Origin: a virus
Reading direction: 5' to 3' (one strand)
Length of the DNA stretch: 52,099 nucleotides
IMG/VR virus record: IMGVR_UViG_3300047318_000360
Coordinates: 1 to 52,099 of that record
Positions 1 through 35,632 of this stretch are shown in pieces (positions within the stretch are counted from its first letter, which is position 1; every line of letters begins with the position of its first letter). The position numbers and the translations under genes were made by a program. The notes below the pieces were generated by a model, which was not told where the DNA came from, ran no database searches, and was given only the letters and a program-made list of their open reading frames with translations.

Positions 1-42
1 GACGAAAGAAGATCCGAAGTAAGATAGGGTGGGAGGGGAGAA

Positions 43-52
43 CTGGTATAAA
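43..52 (+). promoter_or_regulatory. Promoter-like box inside a palindrome
   Basis: CTGGTATAAA resembles the TTGGTATAAG box used elsewhere on this strand. It sits inside a perfect palindrome, ACTGGT-ATAA-ACCAGT (42-57), which could be an operator or a transcript hairpin. It lies 45 bp upstream of the small ORF at 97. The fit to the box is imperfect. Confidence 0.4.
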
Positions 53-96
53 CCAGTCTTGGGTATTTTGAAACCTCACCTTTGAAGGAGTTACAA

Positions 97-180
97 ATGC
101 AAAACCTATTTGATTACTTATTTCTGTTCTTCGTATTCCTCTTTACAAAGCCTCAATTGGCATTCGGTCTAACGGCTTAA
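97..180 (+). CDS. Tiny hydrophobic peptide (27 aa)
   Basis: A 27-codon ORF starts at ATG 97 after a strong ribosome binding site (AAGGAG, 85-90, spacing 6) and ends at TAA 178-180. The peptide is almost wholly hydrophobic in its middle (YLFLFFVFLF), so it probably inserts in the inner membrane. It has its own promoter-like box upstream and its own terminator downstream, which argues that it is a real gene. No family is recognised; a small membrane-acting phage peptide is a guess. Confidence 0.55.
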   Translation: MQNLFDYLFLFFVFLFTKPQLAFGLTA

Positions 181-193
181 GAAATAAGTAATT

Positions 194-221
194 AAACCCA
201 GATAGTTTCCTGGGTTTTTTT
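194..221 (+). terminator. Intrinsic terminator after the 27-aa gene
   Basis: Stem AAACCCA / TGGGTTT with a 10-nt loop is followed by a T run and then TAG. Confidence 0.75.
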
Positions 222-252
222 AGATTAGTTTTTCAATAAATAGATATGGATT

Positions 253-262
253 TTGGTATAAG
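253..262 (+). promoter_or_regulatory. TTGGTATAAG promoter of the 0.3-0.7 kb RNA
   Basis: TTGGTATAAG followed by TATAGTA. It is an exact copy of the plus-strand box and the only promoter upstream of the structured, ORF-free stretch that follows. Confidence 0.7.
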
Positions 263-269
263 TATAGTA

Positions 270-687
270 CATAAGGATAACACTTTATGAAACCAATTCG
301 AAGTGGTTCGGATTGATACCGTAGTCCACATGATGGTTTATGGATTACTGACCTTGCACAGATAAATCTCAAGCACACGTCGAAAGGCGCGTAACCGTCG
401 AAGCCGGAGTTTCAAGATATCAAGCTATCACCCTCTCAAGGTGGTACCCGTAGAAGCCGGACACCCTCTCGACTGTAGTCTGTCGAGTTGAACCCGGTAT
501 TACCAACCCGGCAACCTAGGACGCTAGGTTGAAGCAAGAGCCTTAGGCGTGAGGATGGCGACCTCGAATGTAGCACACATAGATTTAAATACCCATATAG
601 CAACACCCGTGAACAAGAGGGACGAATGGTCGATCCACCCTTAGAAAAGGAAAGACTGGAAAGCCCTAGATCCTTAGGGCTTTTTTT
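270..687 (+). ncRNA. Candidate large structured non-coding RNA (~410 nt)
   Basis: The stretch between an exact promoter box (253-262) and a strong terminator (661-687) has no ORF longer than a few codons with a ribosome binding site. It is visibly more GC-rich than its surroundings and dense in potential stems: GTAGTCCA/TGGATTAC (8 bp with one G-U), CGTC-GAAA-GGCG, ATCACC/GGTGGT, CTCGAC/GTCGAG, CAACCTAG-GACG-CTAGGTTG (8 bp, perfect) and GAGG/CCTC. A segment of about 18 nt ending GAAGCCGGA occurs twice, near 391-408 and 444-461, with two mismatches. I found no hallmark of tmRNA, RNase P RNA, SRP RNA or a tRNA. Transcript ends are inferred; function unknown. Confidence 0.65.
661..687 (+). terminator. 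Intrinsic terminator of the large ncRNA
   Basis: Perfect 8-bp stem AAGCCCTA / TAGGGCTT followed by seven T and AG. It lies just before the stop of the convergent gene 691-1206. Confidence 0.85.
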
Positions 688-690
688 AGA

Positions 691-1206
691 TTACTTCTCG
701 CTGAGAACCATGTCCAGCTGTGGGAAAGGAATTGCAACTTGAGCAAAAGCTCCTGCCAGGGTCAACATACGAAGGTACATAATAACACTTTCTCCAGATA
801 CGTCTAATCCAATGATAGAGATTTCTTGCAGTTGACTTGCAGGATCACTGTTAACCATATTCAAAATGTACTTAGTCTGGCTTTCTGCATTCTTCACTTC
901 TCCCGCAAGTTCTGAAGCAAAGATAGTATCGTTCTGAGTAACGTTAGCATTGACAGTAAGCAGCGGAAACATTGTACCTTGGTTTGGCATTAGAACGTTG
1001 CTACCAACTGTGGTGAACAATATCTTCAAAAAGGTTTGAGCAACTTTTTGAATGCCTGTAATTTTCCTTGGAGTTTCCCCTAGATCAAACGTAATTTTCC
1101 CCTCTGGAAAACTATTAGGGAAATCTATCATTAACAAATCATAAGTTCCACCGTCAGGAAGATTAGTTGGTGTACCAAGTCTATTTTTAAAAATCTGTGA
1201 TGTCAT
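691..1206 (-). CDS. Putative baseplate wedge protein, gp25-like
   Basis: 171 aa. Residues about 45-85 (RKITGIQKVAQTFLKILFTT, then a P-N-Q-G stretch) resemble the gp25/W family, in which a conserved helix is followed by a loop with P and G; in contractile tails this subunit joins the baseplate wedge to the sheath. It is the last gene of the minus-strand baseplate operon and overlaps the upstream gene by 4 nt (ATGA), which suggests translational coupling. The stop abuts a terminator of the convergent ncRNA. The family call rests on motif resemblance and gene position and is moderate. Confidence 0.45.
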   Translation of the reverse strand: MTSQIFKNRLGTPTNLPDGGTYDLLMIDFPNSFPEGKITFDLGETPRKITGIQKVAQTFLKILFTTVGSNVLMPNQGTMFPLLTVNANVTQNDTIFASELAGEVKNAESQTKYILNMVNSDPASQLQEISIIGLDVSGESVIMYLRMLTLAGAFAQVAIPFPQLDMVLSEK

Positions 1207-1604
1207 GAAGTTTTACCCTCTTCGTGTAATCCTATAATCATACTAGTCCAGAAAGACTTCATCGTAGAATAGAAATTGCTTTCATTCATATAGTCAGAAG
1301 ATCCATCTGCGTAGTAATCAATCTTGGATTTGGACCTGAGATTGAATTCTCTTGTAATAGCCGCCATCATATGAATGTTTTCAATAGCAGCTCCATTTTC
1401 GAAGGATGACGAATCTGAAGCCCTGGTTGTTGCCATACGGTGCAGCTCAGAGAAATCCAATTTAGAAACTATCTCAGAGACATCAGGAGGAATTTCTGTT
1501 CCAGTAATATCTGAGACGAACTTATTCATATCAGCAAAATAACCTGCTAATAACTCATTTGCATTCTCTGCTTGTCCAACTGCTGAATTAGGATCTGAAG
1601 CCAT
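1203..1604 (-). CDS. Hypothetical protein in the baseplate operon (133 aa)
   Basis: I recognise no family. The protein is mostly helical in character and acidic at its N-terminus, with no signal peptide or membrane segment. Its ATG overlaps the TAA of the sigma factor gene by one base (TAATG) and its end overlaps the next gene by 4 nt, so it is translated as part of a tightly coupled string. Context suggests a baseplate or assembly role; this is inference only. Confidence 0.6.
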   Translation of the reverse strand: MASDPNSAVGQAENANELLAGYFADMNKFVSDITGTEIPPDVSEIVSKLDFSELHRMATTRASDSSSFENGAAIENIHMMAAITREFNLRSKSKIDYYADGSSDYMNESNFYSTMKSFWTSMIIGLHEEGKTS

Positions 1605-2335
1605 TAATACATCCCACTATCACGTTTAATTTTTTTGATCTTTTCCGCCAATTTAGATTTCAGGTAATTGAGTCTATTGATATTCACTCCTAACTGTTTT
1701 GCAAGATCTGTAGAAGTAATAACCTTAGCATTTTCTAATATGAATTTTTCCTGATAATCTAATTGACTCATCAAGTGTTCCATTAATAAAGCATTTTCAT
1801 TGAACTGAGTAAATTCACTTGCTCGTTCATTTCCAGACTCGATAAGGTCGGCGTACAAAGCATTTTTAAACTTCAGAGTTTGTGGCTTTGACCATCCCAG
1901 TTTAGATGCTAGTTCTTCGTTAGAAGGCTCTCTATTAAGTTCTTCCGTAAGCAGAGTAACAGCGTGGTTGTATTCATGGAACTTCAGATGTAAGTTCTCT
2001 GGAAGACGAACAGCGTTTTGAAACTTATAGTTCATACGACGAATCTTAGGCAAGTAATTCATAACATGGGTAGACAGTGCTACACCCTTGCTTGGATCGT
2101 AAGTTTGAATGGCTTTGAATGTCCATTTTTTAGCTTCACCAGCTAATGCGGTAGTTGGTAAGCTCCCACTAGCTCTACGTACTTCGGCACTGATAATACC
2201 ACCGAGATTATCAACAAGTTCACCTAAGTGTTTCTTACTGCCAGTCTCTTTCCATATGGTATACAACTCCAAGTCCCTCTCTTTACGGGTAGGGATCGGA
2301 ATGTCTGTTGTTTTAATTTCGTTTTCTGTGGTCAT
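1604..2335 (-). CDS. Phage RNA polymerase sigma factor (sigma70 family)
   Basis: 243 aa. Residues about 74-105 carry a region-2-like stretch: AIQTYDPSKGVALSTHV followed by a basic and aromatic segment, as in the sigma part that binds core polymerase and melts the -10 element. Residues 110-160 fit region 3 (VRLPENL, then EPSNEELASKLGWS), and 190-235 look like a reduced region 4 with a helix-turn-helix (STDLAKQLGVNINRLNYLKS). It should redirect host RNA polymerase to phage promoters, and two candidate promoter classes exist in this window. It lies inside the virion-gene operon, so it may act late. Start and stop overlap neighbouring genes by one base. Confidence 0.75.
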   Translation of the reverse strand: MTTENEIKTTDIPIPTRKERDLELYTIWKETGSKKHLGELVDNLGGIISAEVRRASGSLPTTALAGEAKKWTFKAIQTYDPSKGVALSTHVMNYLPKIRRMNYKFQNAVRLPENLHLKFHEYNHAVTLLTEELNREPSNEELASKLGWSKPQTLKFKNALYADLIESGNERASEFTQFNENALLMEHLMSQLDYQEKFILENAKVITSTDLAKQLGVNINRLNYLKSKLAEKIKKIKRDSGMY

Positions 2336-14577: not shown

Positions 14578-14600
14578 ACCGTAAGTTTAGCACGTTTCTT

Positions 14601-25877: not shown

Positions 25878-26068
25878 AAAGAGTATTTTACCATGGAGAA
25901 GTGTCCAGAAAAAAACTGGACATCAAACGGACATTTCGGGGTTTGTCCAGTTTCTGTTTTAGGTATATTTATTGACGATGTAGAAATCAGTGTCCAAAAG
26001 CTAAAAAAACTGGACACCAAATTGGACGCACTTTTCTCCTGTGTCTATTGGGTGTTAGGTACCAAAAC

Positions 26069-26118
26069 TGTCCAAATGTCCAGAAATATTTCCCAATAGG
26101 GTACCCCACGAGAAAAAA
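26069..26118 (+). repeat. Perfect inverted repeat, left arm (50 bp)
   Basis: Exact reverse complement of 26271-26320. It contains two TGTCCA boxes, a CCCAATAGGG-like stretch and GGTACCCC. Confidence 0.95.
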
Positions 26119-26270
26119 TAAAAAATTTTCAAAGAAAACTTCTACGTCTCAAAAACCTGGGCAATTACCCTATATTATATATTTATAACTAATAACTATT
26201 AATATTATATAGAGGGGATTTCGGCAAACTGACATTTTGAAGGTATATATTTTTCCAAAAAGTTTTTTAC

Positions 26271-26320
26271 TTTTTTCTCGTGGGGTACCCTATTGGGAAA
26301 TATTTCTGGACATTTGGACA
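26271..26320 (-). repeat. Perfect inverted repeat, right arm (50 bp)
   Basis: Exact reverse complement of 26069-26118. Imperfect complementarity goes on inward through A/T runs on both sides. Confidence 0.95.
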
Positions 26321-26503
26321 CTTTAACCATTCCTTCAGTAATACCTATTGGGTAAAAATGCGTCCAATTTGATGTCCAGTTTTTTCCAATTTTGGACAGT
26401 GATTTCTAAACTATTAATAAACACAGCTAAAACAAGAATTGGACAATGGTCCAAATGTCCGGTCAGTGTCCAGTTTTTCTAGATAATTTAATTACTTTAA
26501 TAG

Positions 26504-26563: not shown

Positions 26564-27088
26564 ATGGAAATTTTAGAAAAAAAACGTGGTAGAAAAAAAG
26601 AACTTCTGGAAAATAAGTTCAATAGACTTATAGAAAAAACTGATACCTGTTGGATATGGATGGGTGCTGTTAATAGTAAGGGGTATGGCCTAGTACTAGA
26701 TGATGCTGGTAAATTACAACTTGTACATAGACTTTTACATGAACGAGTAAATGGGAAAATTCCACCTAATGCTTCTGTTCTACATAGTTGTGATAATCCA
26801 TCCTGTTGTAACCCAGTGCATCTAAGAGTAGGTTCTTCAAAAGAAAACATGGATGAAAAAATCTCTAAAAATAGGGATCATTCTAATAGGGGTACTAACC
26901 ACTGGAATAATAGATTTACTGATGACCAGATACTTGCAATAAGAAATGATACTAGAACTCAAATTGAAATTGCAAAAGAGTATGGTATATCTCAACCTCA
27001 CGTATCTATTATAAAAAATTCCAAAACTAGAAAAATTTTAGGTATCAAGCAAGAGCCTCGTCAGCTTGAGCTTCAATTTAGCTTCTGA
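26564..27088 (+). CDS. HNH homing endonuclease (174 aa)
   Basis: ATG follows AGGAAGACTT. The HNH core covers residues 29-95: CWIWMGAVNSKGYG, His55-Arg56, then HSCDNPSCCNPVHLRVG with His74, Asn83 and His86. After it, ENMDE and a helix-turn-helix (QIEIAKEYGISQPHVSII) probably bind the target site. It is a free-standing nuclease gene that copies itself into sites lacking it. The N-terminus is Lys-rich. It stands beside the palindrome under a host-type promoter. Confidence 0.88.
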   Translation: MEILEKKRGRKKELLENKFNRLIEKTDTCWIWMGAVNSKGYGLVLDDAGKLQLVHRLLHERVNGKIPPNASVLHSCDNPSCCNPVHLRVGSSKENMDEKISKNRDHSNRGTNHWNNRFTDDQILAIRNDTRTQIEIAKEYGISQPHVSIIKNSKTRKILGIKQEPRQLELQFSF

Positions 27089-27338: not shown

Positions 27339-27896
27339 GTGAACATAAATGAAATTCTACTCAGTCAGATCATCGAAACTGACAGTCCATTGACTATCCC
27401 GAAGTTAATCTCGGAAACTTTCAAAGTGAAAAACAACTACTATGTTGTAACAGATGGGAACGTATTCAACTACTATCCGATAAAGGTAGAAGTAACACCT
27501 GAAGACAAACCATTTTTTCGCTTAGAGAAATCAGCTCCAGTGCTACTGGAAGGTGTGGCAATTATAGACAAGAAAGTCTATGCCGTACCATTATCCGATC
27601 TCATGCGAAGACTTGTACGAAAATCCCGAGAAATTAACTTAGAGGTAGTAAATGGAAGCTTTAACACTAGTAGCGATGCCACAGCAGCAGATTCAACCCT
27701 CCCCCCTTCCCCTGACGTTGCTGGCACAAAAGCCATTCAACCTATTGTCAAACGAAGATCTAACCGAGAAATTGAAGTGGAAATCGGTGAAGCTGCTGAC
27801 ATTGCTTGGCAAGACCAAGTCAGAGCACTACTCAGTGTTGTATCTGAGGAAGAAGGGTTCGGCGGGGAGGAGTGGGAAATTACGGACGCTGCATAA
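27339..27896 (+). CDS. Unknown protein overlapping the reverse transcriptase (185 aa)
   Basis: GTG start with weak upstream GGAT. The N-terminal ~105 residues look like a folded beta-rich domain (NNYYVVTDGNVFNYYPIKVE). From about residue 105 it becomes Ser/Pro-rich then acidic, exactly where the reverse transcriptase reading frame begins on the same DNA (27652-27896, +1 frame). No family is recognised. Either both frames are used or the two are joined by a frameshift. Confidence 0.5.
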   Translation: MNINEILLSQIIETDSPLTIPKLISETFKVKNNYYVVTDGNVFNYYPIKVEVTPEDKPFFRLEKSAPVLLEGVAIIDKKVYAVPLSDLMRRLVRKSREINLEVVNGSFNTSSDATAADSTLPPSPDVAGTKAIQPIVKRRSNREIEVEIGEAADIAWQDQVRALLSVVSEEEGFGGEEWEITDAA

Positions 27897-28800
27897 TCCG
27901 GATGGTTTGATGAGGGTTGTTCAATTCAAAATCTTGAAACAACTCTTGGAAAAAATCGAAGTACCGGAATATATCCACGCGTTCGAGAAAGAAAGGAGCA
28001 TCCCAGCAATGGCTGCTCTTCACGTAGGTAAACAAGTTGTCGTAAGTCTTGATCTTAAAGACTTCTTCACTTCGATTAAACAGTATCATGTTGACCAGAT
28101 CTTCCAGCATCTAGGCATTGCAGAAAAACCTGCAAGGACTCTATCTGAGCTCTGCACCTACAAGAGTTTTGTTCCACAAGGAGCTTTGACTAGTCCAAAG
28201 CTTAGTAATATCGTAACAGCATTAACATTCGGCCCTCACATTAAAAACTATTGTGATACCAAAGAGTATACCTTATCCATATATGCGGACGATATCACAA
28301 TCTCGTGTGATCAAAAATTAGATGGTCAAGAAGGACGTGATACTGTCACCCAACTAATTACCTTTGTTACCGAACAAGTTCAGCGATTTGGTTTCAAGAT
28401 CAATCGTGACAAAATTAAGGTAATGAAAACCTACCAACGACAATACGTATGTGGAGCCGTTGTGAACCAAAAAGTCAATATGCAAAAACGGGAGCGTCAC
28501 AAACTCCGAGCCATTGTCTATAACTGTGAAAAGAATGGTATCAAAGCAGAGGCAGAGAAGAATAGCCTTTCACCAGATCAGTTCGCATCAAAGATAATGG
28601 GGCGACTTAATTGGTTCGCTCAGCTTAATCCTGAAGCTGGGGAACGTGGAAAAGAAAAGTTTAAACAAGTCTGTGCGGATCAAATAACGTGCCCCACAGC
28701 CGAGACTGAAAGCGTAAAAGAAATAGGGCCGCTAGACAGTCTACCTCAACTCCCACCAACATTGGCAGAAGCAGTAGCAGCCGATACACCGTGGAATTGA
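27652..28800 (+). CDS. Retron-like reverse transcriptase (382 aa)
   Basis: All core reverse-transcriptase motifs are present: SLDLKDFFTSI (132-142) with the first Asp, VPQGALTSPKLSN (174-186), the YADD active site (211-214), FGFKINRDK (247-254) and a thumb-like basic region. PQG-x-x-TSP-x-LSN is the retron/group-II form and not the diversity-generating form. The retron hallmarks are altered: MAALH (120-124) where N-A-x-x-H is usual and VCG (266-268) where VTG is usual. The start at 27652 has a good AGAGGT site. The last 50 residues are Pro- and acid-rich. Likely a retron or stand-alone phage reverse transcriptase. Confidence 0.82.
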   Translation: MEALTLVAMPQQQIQPSPLPLTLLAQKPFNLLSNEDLTEKLKWKSVKLLTLLGKTKSEHYSVLYLRKKGSAGRSGKLRTLHNPDGLMRVVQFKILKQLLEKIEVPEYIHAFEKERSIPAMAALHVGKQVVVSLDLKDFFTSIKQYHVDQIFQHLGIAEKPARTLSELCTYKSFVPQGALTSPKLSNIVTALTFGPHIKNYCDTKEYTLSIYADDITISCDQKLDGQEGRDTVTQLITFVTEQVQRFGFKINRDKIKVMKTYQRQYVCGAVVNQKVNMQKRERHKLRAIVYNCEKNGIKAEAEKNSLSPDQFASKIMGRLNWFAQLNPEAGERGKEKFKQVCADQITCPTAETESVKEIGPLDSLPQLPPTLAEAVAADTPWN

Positions 28801-31202: not shown

Positions 31203-31212
31203 TTGGTATAAG
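31203..31212 (+). promoter_or_regulatory. TTGGTATAAG promoter
   Basis: Exact box followed by TAATATAGGA. It lies between the divergent spike-like gene and the phosphoesterase gene at 31258. Confidence 0.7.
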
Positions 31213-31257: not shown

Positions 31258-32022
31258 ATGAAAATTCAGATCAAGTCCGATACCCACAACGAGTACTACT
31301 ACCATAAAACTAGGGTAATAGACGCTGAAAAGAAAACTATGTATGATATCAGCCCAGATGCTGATGTTATTGTTTTAGCTGGAGATATTTCTGAGTCAAG
31401 CTGTGGCTATTCTATTCTTGATCAGTATGGTGATTGTAAAAAGCCAGTTATTTACGTTGCTGGTAATCATGAGTATTGGGGTACTACTATTGAAGAAGCC
31501 AAGACAAAGCGAAAAGAACTCTTCAAAGACTCCAACATCATTGAACTTGACAATGACTTCAAGATAATTGATAACATTGTCTTTATTGGTGCAACATTGT
31601 GGACTTATTTAGCCAATCCAATTCTAGGGTTGATGGCATCTAGAACAAAAGACTTTATCAAGATTAAAGATTTAACTCCAGAGATCTGGAATGGTATGCA
31701 TTTAGATTCTTTGAAGTTTATCGAAGACGCTATTAAACTTCCAAACTTCAAGGATATGAAAAAGGTAGTTGTCACACATTACCTACCAAGTAAGAAATCT
31801 ATTTCACCTAGGTTTAAAGATGAACCTTTGAATTGCATTTTTTCATCTAACTGTGATTATCTGATGCATCAAGACCCGGCCCCAGATATTTGGATTCACG
31901 GTCATACTCATGATAGCTTTGACTACATGAATGGCAAGACAAGAACTATCTGTAATCCTTACGGATATTGGGGGCATATAACAAATCGGAAGTACAACCC
32001 TGAACTTTTAATTGAGGTGTAA
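31258..32022 (+). CDS. Calcineurin-like metallophosphoesterase (254 aa)
   Basis: Complete two-metal site: SDTHNE (7-12), AGDIS (41-45), GNHEYW (69-74), VTHYLPS in the middle third, HGHTHDS near the C-terminal end, then a closing NPYGY. These enzymes cleave phosphomono- or diesters, including nucleotides and nucleic acid ends. No membrane segment. The ATG has no clear ribosome binding site; the leader is AT-rich. The next gene starts two bases after its stop. A role in nucleotide or cyclic-nucleotide signal removal is possible but unproven. Confidence 0.85.
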   Translation: MKIQIKSDTHNEYYYHKTRVIDAEKKTMYDISPDADVIVLAGDISESSCGYSILDQYGDCKKPVIYVAGNHEYWGTTIEEAKTKRKELFKDSNIIELDNDFKIIDNIVFIGATLWTYLANPILGLMASRTKDFIKIKDLTPEIWNGMHLDSLKFIEDAIKLPNFKDMKKVVVTHYLPSKKSISPRFKDEPLNCIFSSNCDYLMHQDPAPDIWIHGHTHDSFDYMNGKTRTICNPYGYWGHITNRKYNPELLIEV

Positions 32023-32792: not shown

Positions 32793-32818
32793 AAAGCCCG
32801 CTAACACAGGGGATTTTT
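32793..32818 (+). terminator. Weak terminator, GCTAACACAG loop family
   Basis: AAAGCCC / GGGGATTTTT, a shortened stem with the recurring loop. Confidence 0.5.
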
Positions 32819-32836
32819 ACATTAGTCATATCTAAA

Positions 32837-32846
32837 TTGGTATAAG
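32837..32846 (+). promoter_or_regulatory. TTGGTATAAG promoter
   Basis: Exact box 51 bp before the ATG at 32897. Confidence 0.7.
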
Positions 32847-32896
32847 CTATATGGAAAAAACCTATAATCCTCTTATTATCTCGGAGACATCCTGAT

Positions 32897-33106
32897 ATGC
32901 TGACTTGGACTTTGTTTTGGAAAAATGGTAAACGTGAAGTTATTCATGGTACTGATTTAGATGATGCCCTTACTAATAATGGGCACACCATGGAATCAGT
33001 AAAGAATACTCAGTTCTATACTCAAGGCCGTTGCAAGAGTTACGAATACGATGAAGAAACCAAAGAATGGATTCATAAATCGGAAGTAGCTGCAGCTTGT
33101 CTGTAG
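32897..33106 (+). CDS. Small protein, paralogue of 34474-34755 (69 aa)
   Basis: The pattern TLFWKNGKREVIHGTD...YEYDEETKEW aligns with TLYWKDGKRQVIEAND...YEFNREFKRW of the other copy, so the two form a small family with a beta-hairpin start and a conserved W near the end. Single-gene unit with its own promoter and terminator. No known function. Confidence 0.65.
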   Translation: MLTWTLFWKNGKREVIHGTDLDDALTNNGHTMESVKNTQFYTQGRCKSYEYDEETKEWIHKSEVAAACL

Positions 33107-33112
33107 CAAAAC

Positions 33113-33141
33113 AAAGACCCGGTTGTATAGGGTCTTTTTTT
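33113..33141 (+). terminator. Terminator
   Basis: AAAGACCC / GGGTCTTT stem with a T run. The loop is changed (GGTTGTATA), but the stem is that of the other cassette terminators. Confidence 0.75.
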
Positions 33142-33159
33142 ACATTTGTGCCATCCATT

Positions 33160-33169
33160 TTGGTATAAG
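33160..33169 (+). promoter_or_regulatory. TTGGTATAAG promoter
   Basis: Exact box 62 bp before the ATG at 33231. Confidence 0.7.
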
Positions 33170-33230
33170 AAATATAGATAAGGACATAGATTCTTATTCA
33201 TTTTCTATAATATTCACGAGGGTAAAGTCA

Positions 33231-34370
33231 ATGCGTATTCGTAATGCTAAGATGGATGAATCCGGTAAAGAAGTTCGTGTAATGTGGAAAGAGCCTGAAT
33301 GGAGAAAGGCTGCTGGTTATTTTCTCCTCGATATACCTTTACTCTGCGAATATGAAGAGTTGAAGGGTATCACCCAAAGCGATATGCTCCGCATGCAAAT
33401 CGCCGTACTACCCCCTGAAATGCATCGCACCAAGGGCGGCTTCAATGACATGATCGGCAACCGTAAAAAGTTGAGGACATTCATTGATCAAATCAAAGCC
33501 GAAGCAATCACCGTTGTACAAGTTGTGCAAGAGATCCCTCTCGAAAGCGCAGCTGAAGTACGGGAACTGCCACCACAAGCGGACATCCCTGAAGTTAAGG
33601 CGGCAATTGCCGAAGTGCTGGAAGAGCATGACGAAGGCGAAAGCCAACTGATGTTCTTCGGAGCAGTAGGGAACAGGGCCGAGATTGTTCAGAAACCAGC
33701 TGTGGAAAAGGTCTGCGTGACCTTACCAGGGCCCACCATAATCGGTGCAGGTGTACTGAACCAGATCTTCTCAAAGCCTCTGACCCCACGTGCAGCAATG
33801 CAGGCAGTCAGTGAAATGAGCTTGGATGCAATTTTGGATCTGTTGTCGGATCGGGTTGCTGACAAGGTTGCGGACAGGGTTGCTGCCAAGATGTCTGAAC
33901 GTATGGCAGCGATCATGCAAGTTAATCCAGTACATGCACCTGTGAAGGCAGTAGCTTCGGTAGTTTCTAAACCAGTAGTGACTGAGCCGAGCCATACGCT
34001 GAAGGCACAGTTGGCTGTAGCAGTAAAAAGCATGCCGAAACCAAAGAAACCGAAGATCATAATCATCGGCATGCAGGGTGCTCAAGCTAACGAAATTGAG
34101 AAAGAGTTTCCTAAGTTTGAGATCGTGCATTTACTCCACGGCAATGACAAGATCAAGGATAAGATCAAGTCAGCCCAGAAGGTATTGGGTATCGAGCAAA
34201 AGCTGGGCAGTTCAGCCAAGATGATCAAAGAGATGCATGGCTCCAACTTTGTGATGCTGAAGTTCGGCATGACGAATATCCGCCATCAACTCGGCATCTG
34301 GGAAACCTGCTACCTCCAGGATCCGACGTACTTCAACATGAGCGAAGCTGAGCGTGTTAATTACTCGTAA
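33231..34370 (+). CDS. Unknown multi-domain protein (379 aa)
   Basis: ATG 33231 after GAGGGTAAAGTCA; the longer frame back to 33123 lies over the promoter and is rejected. The middle is Pro/Ala-rich with an amphipathic repeat (DRVADKVADRVAAKM) likely to oligomerise. The C-terminal ~100 residues look like a Rossmann-type half (KIIIIGMQGAQANEIEKEF, then IVHLLHGND). Codon use is richer in GC-ending codons than its neighbours, as in the Ubl gene, hinting at high expression or different ancestry. No family is recognised. Confidence 0.65.
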   Translation: MRIRNAKMDESGKEVRVMWKEPEWRKAAGYFLLDIPLLCEYEELKGITQSDMLRMQIAVLPPEMHRTKGGFNDMIGNRKKLRTFIDQIKAEAITVVQVVQEIPLESAAEVRELPPQADIPEVKAAIAEVLEEHDEGESQLMFFGAVGNRAEIVQKPAVEKVCVTLPGPTIIGAGVLNQIFSKPLTPRAAMQAVSEMSLDAILDLLSDRVADKVADRVAAKMSERMAAIMQVNPVHAPVKAVASVVSKPVVTEPSHTLKAQLAVAVKSMPKPKKPKIIIIGMQGAQANEIEKEFPKFEIVHLLHGNDKIKDKIKSAQKVLGIEQKLGSSAKMIKEMHGSNFVMLKFGMTNIRHQLGIWETCYLQDPTYFNMSEAERVNYS

Positions 34371-34382
34371 TCCGTAGTACAA

Positions 34383-34410
34383 GAGAGCCCATAACATCGG
34401 GCTCTTTTTT
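34383..34410 (+). terminator. Terminator
   Basis: GAGAGCCC / GGGCTCTTTTTT with loop ATAACATC, then AG. Confidence 0.85.
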
Positions 34411-34427
34411 AGTTTTACCATTCCTTT

Positions 34428-34437
34428 TTGGTATAAG
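34428..34437 (+). promoter_or_regulatory. TTGGTATAAG promoter
   Basis: Exact box followed by AATAGTACA, 37 bp before ATG 34474. Confidence 0.7.
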
Positions 34438-34473
34438 AATAGTACAATAACTAATCCTATCGAAGGCCCTGAA

Positions 34474-34755
34474 ATGAAAAACTTCACACTGTATTGGAAA
34501 GATGGTAAACGTCAAGTTATCGAAGCTAACGATGACGAAAGCTTTACCCAAGCCTTTTCTCGTGTTCTGCCAGAAGCTTCTATTGGAAGTTTGTATTTCC
34601 ATTCAGAAGGAAACACTGATAAGTATGAATTCAACCGTGAGTTTAAACGTTGGGATAAAAAGAAGTTCCAACGTTTTAAACAAGAATCCTCACCGGTAAT
34701 TGATAAGGGAAATTGCCAGTCTTGTGGTGGTCCTAAAGGTGAATGTATCTATTAA
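34474..34755 (+). CDS. Small protein with C-terminal Cys cluster (93 aa)
   Basis: Paralogue of 32897-33106 over its first ~60 residues. The extra C-terminal part carries CQSCGGPKGEC, a possible metal-binding knuckle absent from the shorter copy. Own promoter and terminator. No known function. Confidence 0.65.
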   Translation: MKNFTLYWKDGKRQVIEANDDESFTQAFSRVLPEASIGSLYFHSEGNTDKYEFNREFKRWDKKKFQRFKQESSPVIDKGNCQSCGGPKGECIY

Positions 34756-34769
34756 GCACCAAAAGAAAA

Positions 34770-34797
34770 AAGCCCCGCATTTGCAGGGCTTTTTTTT
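34770..34797 (+). terminator. Terminator, likely acting in both directions
   Basis: AGCCCCGC-ATTT-GCAGGGCT with a T run and AG. The minus strand also ends in a U-rich stretch here. Confidence 0.8.
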
Positions 34798-34811
34798 AGG
34801 TTTATAACCTA

Positions 34812-35474
34812 TTATCCAAAACTAACAGGTACAGTACGATCATACTGAATCTGCACGTTCTCAGCAATCACAGGCTGTTGGCTTGTAATTTGTAAAGATA
34901 GACCCTCAATCATACAGTATTCTAGGTACACTGCGCTAAGAGGTTTACCGTAGCCATCACTATTACCACCACGAGTCTTCATAACTAACAACAGCCCACA
35001 AGGAACAGCAAAGTATTCAGAATCCAAGTTGTGCATAATATCGTTACCTTCAGCACCTGGGGCACGAACGCCATCAGTTGCCATCTTTGGACGATACGCA
35101 GATTGAGTCAACGCAGCAAGAATGTTCTTCTGATCTGCAAGCATTTTGCTAAGGCTAATAACTGGTGCGCTCTTACCACGGGTGAAGAACGAACGGTTAG
35201 AACCAATTTCGAATAAACGCATCAGTTGTGCGTTTTGTTGTAGGGCGATATTGTCCACTAAACCAATAGGAACAAGATCCGCACCCGCACTCAAACCTGT
35301 GTAACGAGCCGGACCAGCAAATAGCAGTGTGCTATCTGGTGATGCAGAAAACTGGGAGAAACGCTCATAGCCTTCTTCCTTTAATGAATCTACGTATGAA
35401 CCTTTCCAGTCCCACTGACTTGAAAAACCATTTTGTGCTGTAGTACCTAAACGATCATTAAGAGCGTCAGCCAT
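34812..35474 (-). CDS. Putative tail tube protein (220 aa)
   Basis: Beta-rich protein with PIGLVDNIALQQNAQLMRLFE, a segment RSFFTRGKSAP and a closing EGLSLQITSQQP...NVQIQYDRTVPVSF, the layout expected of a contractile-tail tube subunit. Size and the nearness of the sheath gene agree with this. It has a TAAAATAAGT box 77 bp upstream and a leader with two hairpins, as do the sheath and capsid genes, suggesting abundant late expression. Possible alternative: another tube-like structural protein. Confidence 0.6.
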   Translation of the reverse strand: MADALNDRLGTTAQNGFSSQWDWKGSYVDSLKEEGYERFSQFSASPDSTLLFAGPARYTGLSAGADLVPIGLVDNIALQQNAQLMRLFEIGSNRSFFTRGKSAPVISLSKMLADQKNILAALTQSAYRPKMATDGVRAPGAEGNDIMHNLDSEYFAVPCGLLLVMKTRGGNSDGYGKPLSAVYLEYCMIEGLSLQITSQQPVIAENVQIQYDRTVPVSFG

Positions 35475-35502
35475 TTTATTAATCCTTTTAATATTATAAG
35501 AA

Positions 35503-35521
35503 GGGCCTGTCTCTCAGACCC
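35503..35521 (-). promoter_or_regulatory. Leader hairpin of the tube gene
   Basis: GGGTCTG-AGAGA-CAGGCCC on the minus strand; a second one, GAGGT-TTT-ACCTC, is at 35535-35547. Both lie between promoter box and ribosome binding site and may protect the mRNA 5' end. Confidence 0.55.
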
Positions 35522-35551
35522 GTTGAAATTTGTTGAGGTAAAACCTCTAGC

Positions 35552-35561
35552 ACTTATTTTA
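35552..35561 (-). promoter_or_regulatory. TAAAATAAGT late-type promoter box (tube)
   Basis: Identical ten bases precede the sheath and capsid-decoration genes. Confidence 0.65.
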
Positions 35562-35591
35562 ATCAAAGATTTCAAATATGGCTGATGCTAT

Positions 35592-35601
35592 TTGGTATAA
35601 G
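35592..35601 (+). promoter_or_regulatory. TTGGTATAAG promoter
   Basis: Exact box followed by AATAATAACG, 32 bp before ATG 35633. Confidence 0.7.
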
Positions 35602-35632
35602 AATAATAACGTAAACTCCTTAGGAGATTGGC

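Follow-up and report, generated by a model that had tools for sequence, protein, structure and literature searches.

The window analysed here, the 52,099 nucleotides of IMG/VR record IMGVR_UViG_3300047318_000360, is a 52-kb fragment of a phage genome, and near its start (positions 251–687, plus strand) there is a promoter followed by approximately 415 nt free of open reading frames (ORFs) and then by an intrinsic terminator. An initial annotation had proposed that this stretch, which occupies 270–687 (+) if its 5' end is placed by the promoter and its 3' end by the terminator, encodes a large orphan structured RNA. Judging from the anatomy of the unit, the RNA is very probably a real and autonomous structured molecule, and its gene, its predicted fold, its position in the phage genome and its possible role are considered in turn.

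The transcription unit

The promoter, TTTTGGTATAAGTATAGT at 251–268 (+) with its extended −10-like TGGTATAAG, is an instance of a family-wide motif, and TTTTGGTATAAGTATAGTAC at 251–270 is a perfect copy of that motif (TTTTGGTATAAGTATA), bearing out the exact promoter box that had been claimed. With up to three mismatches allowed, the motif has six sites in the window, all on the plus strand (the further ones at 14599, 29126, 29414, 34426 and 42298), as against the zero expected from shuffles, and it is common to the related phages: its exact core TTGGTATAARTAT has 20 copies in six of 17 records, on a single strand within each record, and the reversed core that served as a control had no match in the 17. 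The core TGGTATAAG looks like an extended −10 element, for which either the host sigma-70 or a phage sigma-like protein encoded at 1604–2335 (phrog_351) is a candidate reader. Nearly all other copies of the promoter, in the window and in related phages, have an ORF with a ribosome site some 20–80 nt 3' of them.

On the plus strand of the RNA itself the longest ORFs are just 31 and 38 codons (amino acids, aa), and the homologue described below keeps neither of them, the ATG of the 38-aa ORF being absent there; the statement that there is no plausible ORF was therefore sound. The terminator that had been seen at the end of the unit, AAGCCCTAG-ATCC-TTAGGGCTT at 661–687 (+), has nine base pairs and is followed by a T7 tail (seven T residues). 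The GC content of the unit, 0.46–0.52, is indeed above that of its surroundings (0.27–0.33 just upstream, and 0.40 for the whole window).

Homologue and predicted fold

A single homologue of the RNA was found, at the same position in IMG/VR record IMGVR_UViG_3300047318_000236 (L007). It is 84% identical to the window RNA over 270–665, with 39 gap columns, and it lies between flanks that are 99.5% (left, 193 nt) and 95.7% (right, 210 nt) identical in the two phages. Across window positions 194–645 the terminator that precedes the RNA is also diverged, at 70% identity, and both it and the RNA are far below their flanks. By DNA similarity, no other relative was found in phages, with the window RNA and the homologue as queries, or in plasmids. 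Four patterns taken from the RNA (one gapped double-repeat, one in the 3' core, and two of 15–16 nt drawn from the second GCCGG repeat) were searched for in IMG/VR, and one in the GTDB genomes, and these exact patterns, which distant homologues could escape, recovered the homologue only, the other sites being chance ones as judged by nhmmer and a covariance model. The covariance model run on the 17 whole records, those of Salmonella phage Arash and of a 184,920-bp relative included, returned just the copies of the window and L007. The RNA is a real one, new among phage RNAs and, with two members to date, very rare. Its earlier description as an undescribed phage RNA class holds for an orphan structured RNA with a promoter and a terminator; a widespread class is not supported by two records.

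All structural tests rest on these two sequences. Folded singly, the window RNA was just modestly ahead of its shuffles (z −1.96, with 3 of 100 equally good) and the homologue more clearly so (z −3.26, with none of 100 equally good), and the two-sequence consensus fold was more stable than each of 200 column shuffles (z −4.3, or −4.4 without the terminator). In a hand model with 15 named helices 98% of cells are paired, compared to 29–44% when the model is slid. Five base pairs have changed on both sides with their pairing kept (one in P1, one in P6 and three adjacent ones in P8), a number reached by 21 of 500 shuffles, and substitutions were fewer at paired sites (18 of 198, 9%) than at unpaired ones (45 of 215, 21%; p 0.0009). 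Compensatory change, which the annotation had proposed to look for by comparative alignment, shows the predicted fold to be conserved.

The predicted molecule begins with P1 (270–289, + as are all strands below), a covarying hairpin of 7 bp (G-C to A-U; G-U to G-C), and continues with a closing helix, the 5' strand of which (GGAUUGAU, 310–317) pairs with a 3' strand at 629–636. The closing helix is invariant and shows no covariation, and its core has a pair probability of 0.74 in the window RNA and 0.99 in the homologue. Both of its strands were entered as local hairpins in the 15-helix count; because they are invariant either way, the covariation counts are independent of this notation. Between the two strands lie P3 (321–348), an invariant 8-bp hairpin with which a longer closing stem competes in the window RNA's own minimum-energy fold; P4 (378–389), the GAAA-capped stem already noticed, which has an AAAA loop in the homologue and a U-G to U-A change; P6 (426–446), which is partly covarying (A-U to C-G) and has lost two inner pairs in the homologue; P8 (468–487), with its three adjacent changes; P9 (513–530), the GACG-loop stem of the annotation, with seven pairs, or eight if the flanking C-G is counted, which is invariant and opens the best conserved block (approximately 490–577); and the predicted small hairpins P10 and P11 (540–566), the stems of which are invariant. 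Between positions 462 and 463, inside the loop closed by P7, 28 nt are inserted in the homologue, and they may form an ACCU/AGGU hairpin.

A near-repeat ending in GAAGCCGGA, which had suggested two equal binding sites, is present at approximately 390–408 and 445–461, and the reading placed on it is what did not survive, as the joint fold uses each GCCGG copy as the 5' strand of a long-range helix. The first (GCCGGaGUU, 403–411) is the 5' strand of P5 and pairs with AACCCGGC at 505–512, and the second (GUAGaaGCCGG, 450–460) is that of P7 and pairs with CCGGUaUUAC at 494–503. The repeats are better explained as strands of these two predicted helices than as evidence for equal sites, and in such a model the four CCGG words could swap partners. 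Support for P5 and P7 is good in the window RNA and in the joint fold, and absent from the homologue taken alone; P5, for instance, has a probability of 0.65 in the window RNA and close to 0 in the ensemble of the homologue folded singly.

An inserted cassette in a structural gene cluster

The terminase of the window shares 51% identity with its counterpart in Arash (180,819 bp) and 42% with those of Vibrio phages of approximately 187 kb, and IMG/VR holds closer kin, with terminases up to 82% identical. Throughout these phages the structural cluster keeps its order of genes. Downstream of the RNA, at 691–1206 (−), is a convergent gene of that cluster, the homologue of Arash gp12. The left side of the cassette is supplied by L007 and consists of a promoter, a gene for a 147-aa protein, a 27-aa hydrophobic peptide, a terminator and the RNA unit, all of it placed between homologues of Arash gp13 and gp12 and on the opposite strand to both. 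The gp13 and gp12 homologues are directly consecutive in six related loci and annotated as neighbours in Arash, and because they adjoin in relatives that do not have the RNA, the RNA belongs to an inserted, opposite-strand accessory cassette. In the window the 27-aa ORF (MQNLFDYLFLFFVFLFTKPQLAFGLTA, 97–180, +), which has an AAGGAG site and is identical in L007, forms the end of the neighbouring transcript, which a terminator at 194–223 (+) separates from the RNA unit. This ORF may encode a small membrane peptide, and the 147-aa protein of the cassette was matched only in the homologue's contig, with no family found.

The RNA's promoter has relatives beyond this unit. At window 32808–35621 and at other places the promoter-like TTTGGTATAAG recurs, its downstream part being weaker (repeat families D1, D3, D4 and D5), and a calcineurin-like metallophosphoesterase gene at 31258–32022 (+) lies behind a variant of the promoter at 31205. 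The 184,920-bp relative (G007) has a second ORF-free unit of approximately 150 nt with the same promoter (L097:5175-5350 (−), G007:62165-62350), which ends in TTACAGGATAACCTCCCTATCCTGTAAC and a T run, a perfect terminator, and does not resemble the window RNA in sequence. Since this is another ORF-free unit running from promoter to terminator, it is suggested that in this phage group the promoter serves several noncoding RNAs, at least two in number. G007 also has approximately 20 tRNA genes, one of which, with anticodon CTA (L102:15071-15145 (−)) and labelled Pyl by ARAGORN, is a possible amber suppressor.

The window additionally encodes a retron-type reverse transcriptase (27652–28800, +, together with 27339–27896; RVT_1 8.6e-22). 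A retron St85-family model matches it at 1.9e-48, yet below the model's cut-off, and its nearest solved structure is the Ec86 reverse transcriptase. The gene is accompanied by an HNH gene (26564–27088) and, upstream, by an ORF-free region (25911–26478), a 570-nt AT-rich stretch with two nested inverted repeats (125-nt arms that are 78% complementary and 74-nt arms that are 88% complementary). The window RNA was considered as an msr-msd RNA of this reverse transcriptase and rejected, the reverse transcriptase gene being 27 kb distant rather than adjacent.

Possible roles and known phage RNAs

Our preferred account, which we put forward tentatively, is that of a stand-alone structured noncoding RNA gene of approximately 415 nt that is accessory to the phage and acts in trans on a host or competitor factor. 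Expression of the RNA would coincide in phase with that of the small genes which the phage has on the opposite strand, and the RNA would act as a folded molecule consisting of a 5' hairpin and then a branched body closed by 310–317/629–636; by binding a factor of the host or of a competitor, it would serve as an accessory element for takeover or counter-defence. Binding of such a factor is favoured because the presence of the cassette is patchy, because its company consists of small orphan genes and because divergence is highest within an otherwise near-identical overlap. That divergence fits allele exchange or fast diversification, as under diversifying selection. It is doubtful that one can go further and see in the RNA a new large-RNA family, a mobile accessory swapped between phages and diversifying fast, that blocks host defence or a rival phage without a protein product.

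Several points weigh against the account. The divergence of the window RNA from the homologue may be due to plain recombination without selection. Covariation is thin because there are two sequences only, most helices are invariant between the two and covariation is hence silent on them, and the hand model was derived from the same sequences on which it was scored. In the ensemble of the homologue by itself, P5, P6 and P7 all score close to zero. Lastly, the antisense strand folds almost equally well (z −4.0), because the stems are symmetrical, so that the strand is assigned from the promoter and the T tail.

A self-assembling or structural RNA like GOLLD or ROOL, abundant and forming RNA-only multimers in lytic growth rather than being aimed at one host factor, is somewhat unlikely. 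The window RNA is likewise phage-borne, large, ORF-free and branched, and it has an invariant palindrome, UUCGAA, within a stretch able to stay unpaired. That palindrome is, however, the sole conserved palindrome or complementary loop pair of at least 6 nt that was found, the RNA is about half as large as GOLLD and matches neither GOLLD nor ROOL in Rfam, and the window contains no tRNA. An RNA with its own promoter and terminator might instead regulate phage or host mRNAs in trans, as an antisense RNA whose fold is a scaffold for exposed seeds. Many phage and bacterial small RNAs act in this way. Among phage targets, the window contains 19 exact complements of at least 11 nt, no clear excess over shuffles (mean 12.4, maximum 24), and a regulator of this type is unlikely.

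It is quite unlikely that the unit acts in cis, through antisense transcription or as a roadblock where the convergent structural operon ends, with a product of no importance. The geometry would suit such a role, as the RNA terminator ends at 687 and the convergent gene at 691, and the unit and the structural genes are on opposite strands, but the compensatory changes and the hairpin-capable 28-nt insertion point to selection on the RNA itself, and relatives manage without the unit. The small hydrophobic ORF with its strong ribosome site, 90 nt upstream in the same cassette, brings to mind a type I toxin for which the RNA would be the antitoxin; this is very unlikely, as the RNA has no antisense overlap with the 27-aa ORF and the predicted duplex energy (−92) is no better than that of shuffled sequences (mean −95.5). 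That the unit is a decayed mRNA, a mis-called one or a chance intergenic fold, a view for which the single-sequence z of −1.96 might be cited, is hardly credible given the exact shared promoter, the terminator, the conserved pairing and the fewer changes at paired sites.

The account that we favour, a folded RNA acting in trans, has to be set against the phage RNAs already described. With its promoter, terminator, conserved structure and want of a conserved ORF, the unit would belong to the broad kind of autonomous structured phage noncoding RNAs. The covariance-model search that the annotation had called for matched no Rfam family to the RNA at the gathering score, and at a permissive threshold window positions 1–2000 gave only chance or terminator-like matches, GOLLD and ROOL being absent. 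As had been supposed, there is no match to tmRNA, RNase P RNA, signal recognition particle RNA, tRNA or group I introns by Rfam or ARAGORN, and the same is true of 6S RNA and group II introns. The prohead RNA (pRNA) of phi29, a phage-encoded structural RNA of 174 nt that is part of the packaging motor in Phi29-like phages, differs in that no Rfam match links it to the window RNA. The species 1 and 2 RNAs of phage T4, of 120–140 nt and encoded in the tRNA cluster, are likewise small stable phage RNAs, have no known role to our knowledge, and were compared by sequence through the phage collection search only.

Very few large noncoding RNAs have been described from phages, and what they do is not understood. 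Both GOLLD and ROOL assemble into RNA-only multimers or cages, the function of which is not understood, and many members of GOLLD exceed 800 nt and are often near tRNA islands (PMC12286853). Like GOLLD, which belongs to phages and prophages, the window RNA is large, free of ORFs and structured, and like ROOL, which is phage- or prophage-borne, it is branched and stands alone; it is smaller than GOLLD and matches neither model, and the window, as a fragment of its genome, contains no tRNA genes to which it could be close. The most abundant transcript of phage ICP1 is a noncoding RNA of approximately 800 nt located between gp139 and gp140, away from tRNAs (PMC7567579). Like the window RNA it is an orphan noncoding RNA of a phage, in its case an abundant transcript of a lytic one; it is twice as long, and the search of the phage collection by DNA similarity gave no sequence relation between the two. 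Long noncoding RNAs that have been likened to GOLLD and ROOL are also known from the staphylococcal phages K and vB_SauM-515A1, one expressed by each (PMC10383478). As it has no Rfam match and does not reach the length of GOLLD or of the ICP1 RNA, the window RNA represents a new family of orphan large phage RNAs. It is a tractable one in which to study the role of these RNAs, being roughly half of GOLLD's length, with clean gene boundaries, an insertable cassette and strong variation between near-identical phages.
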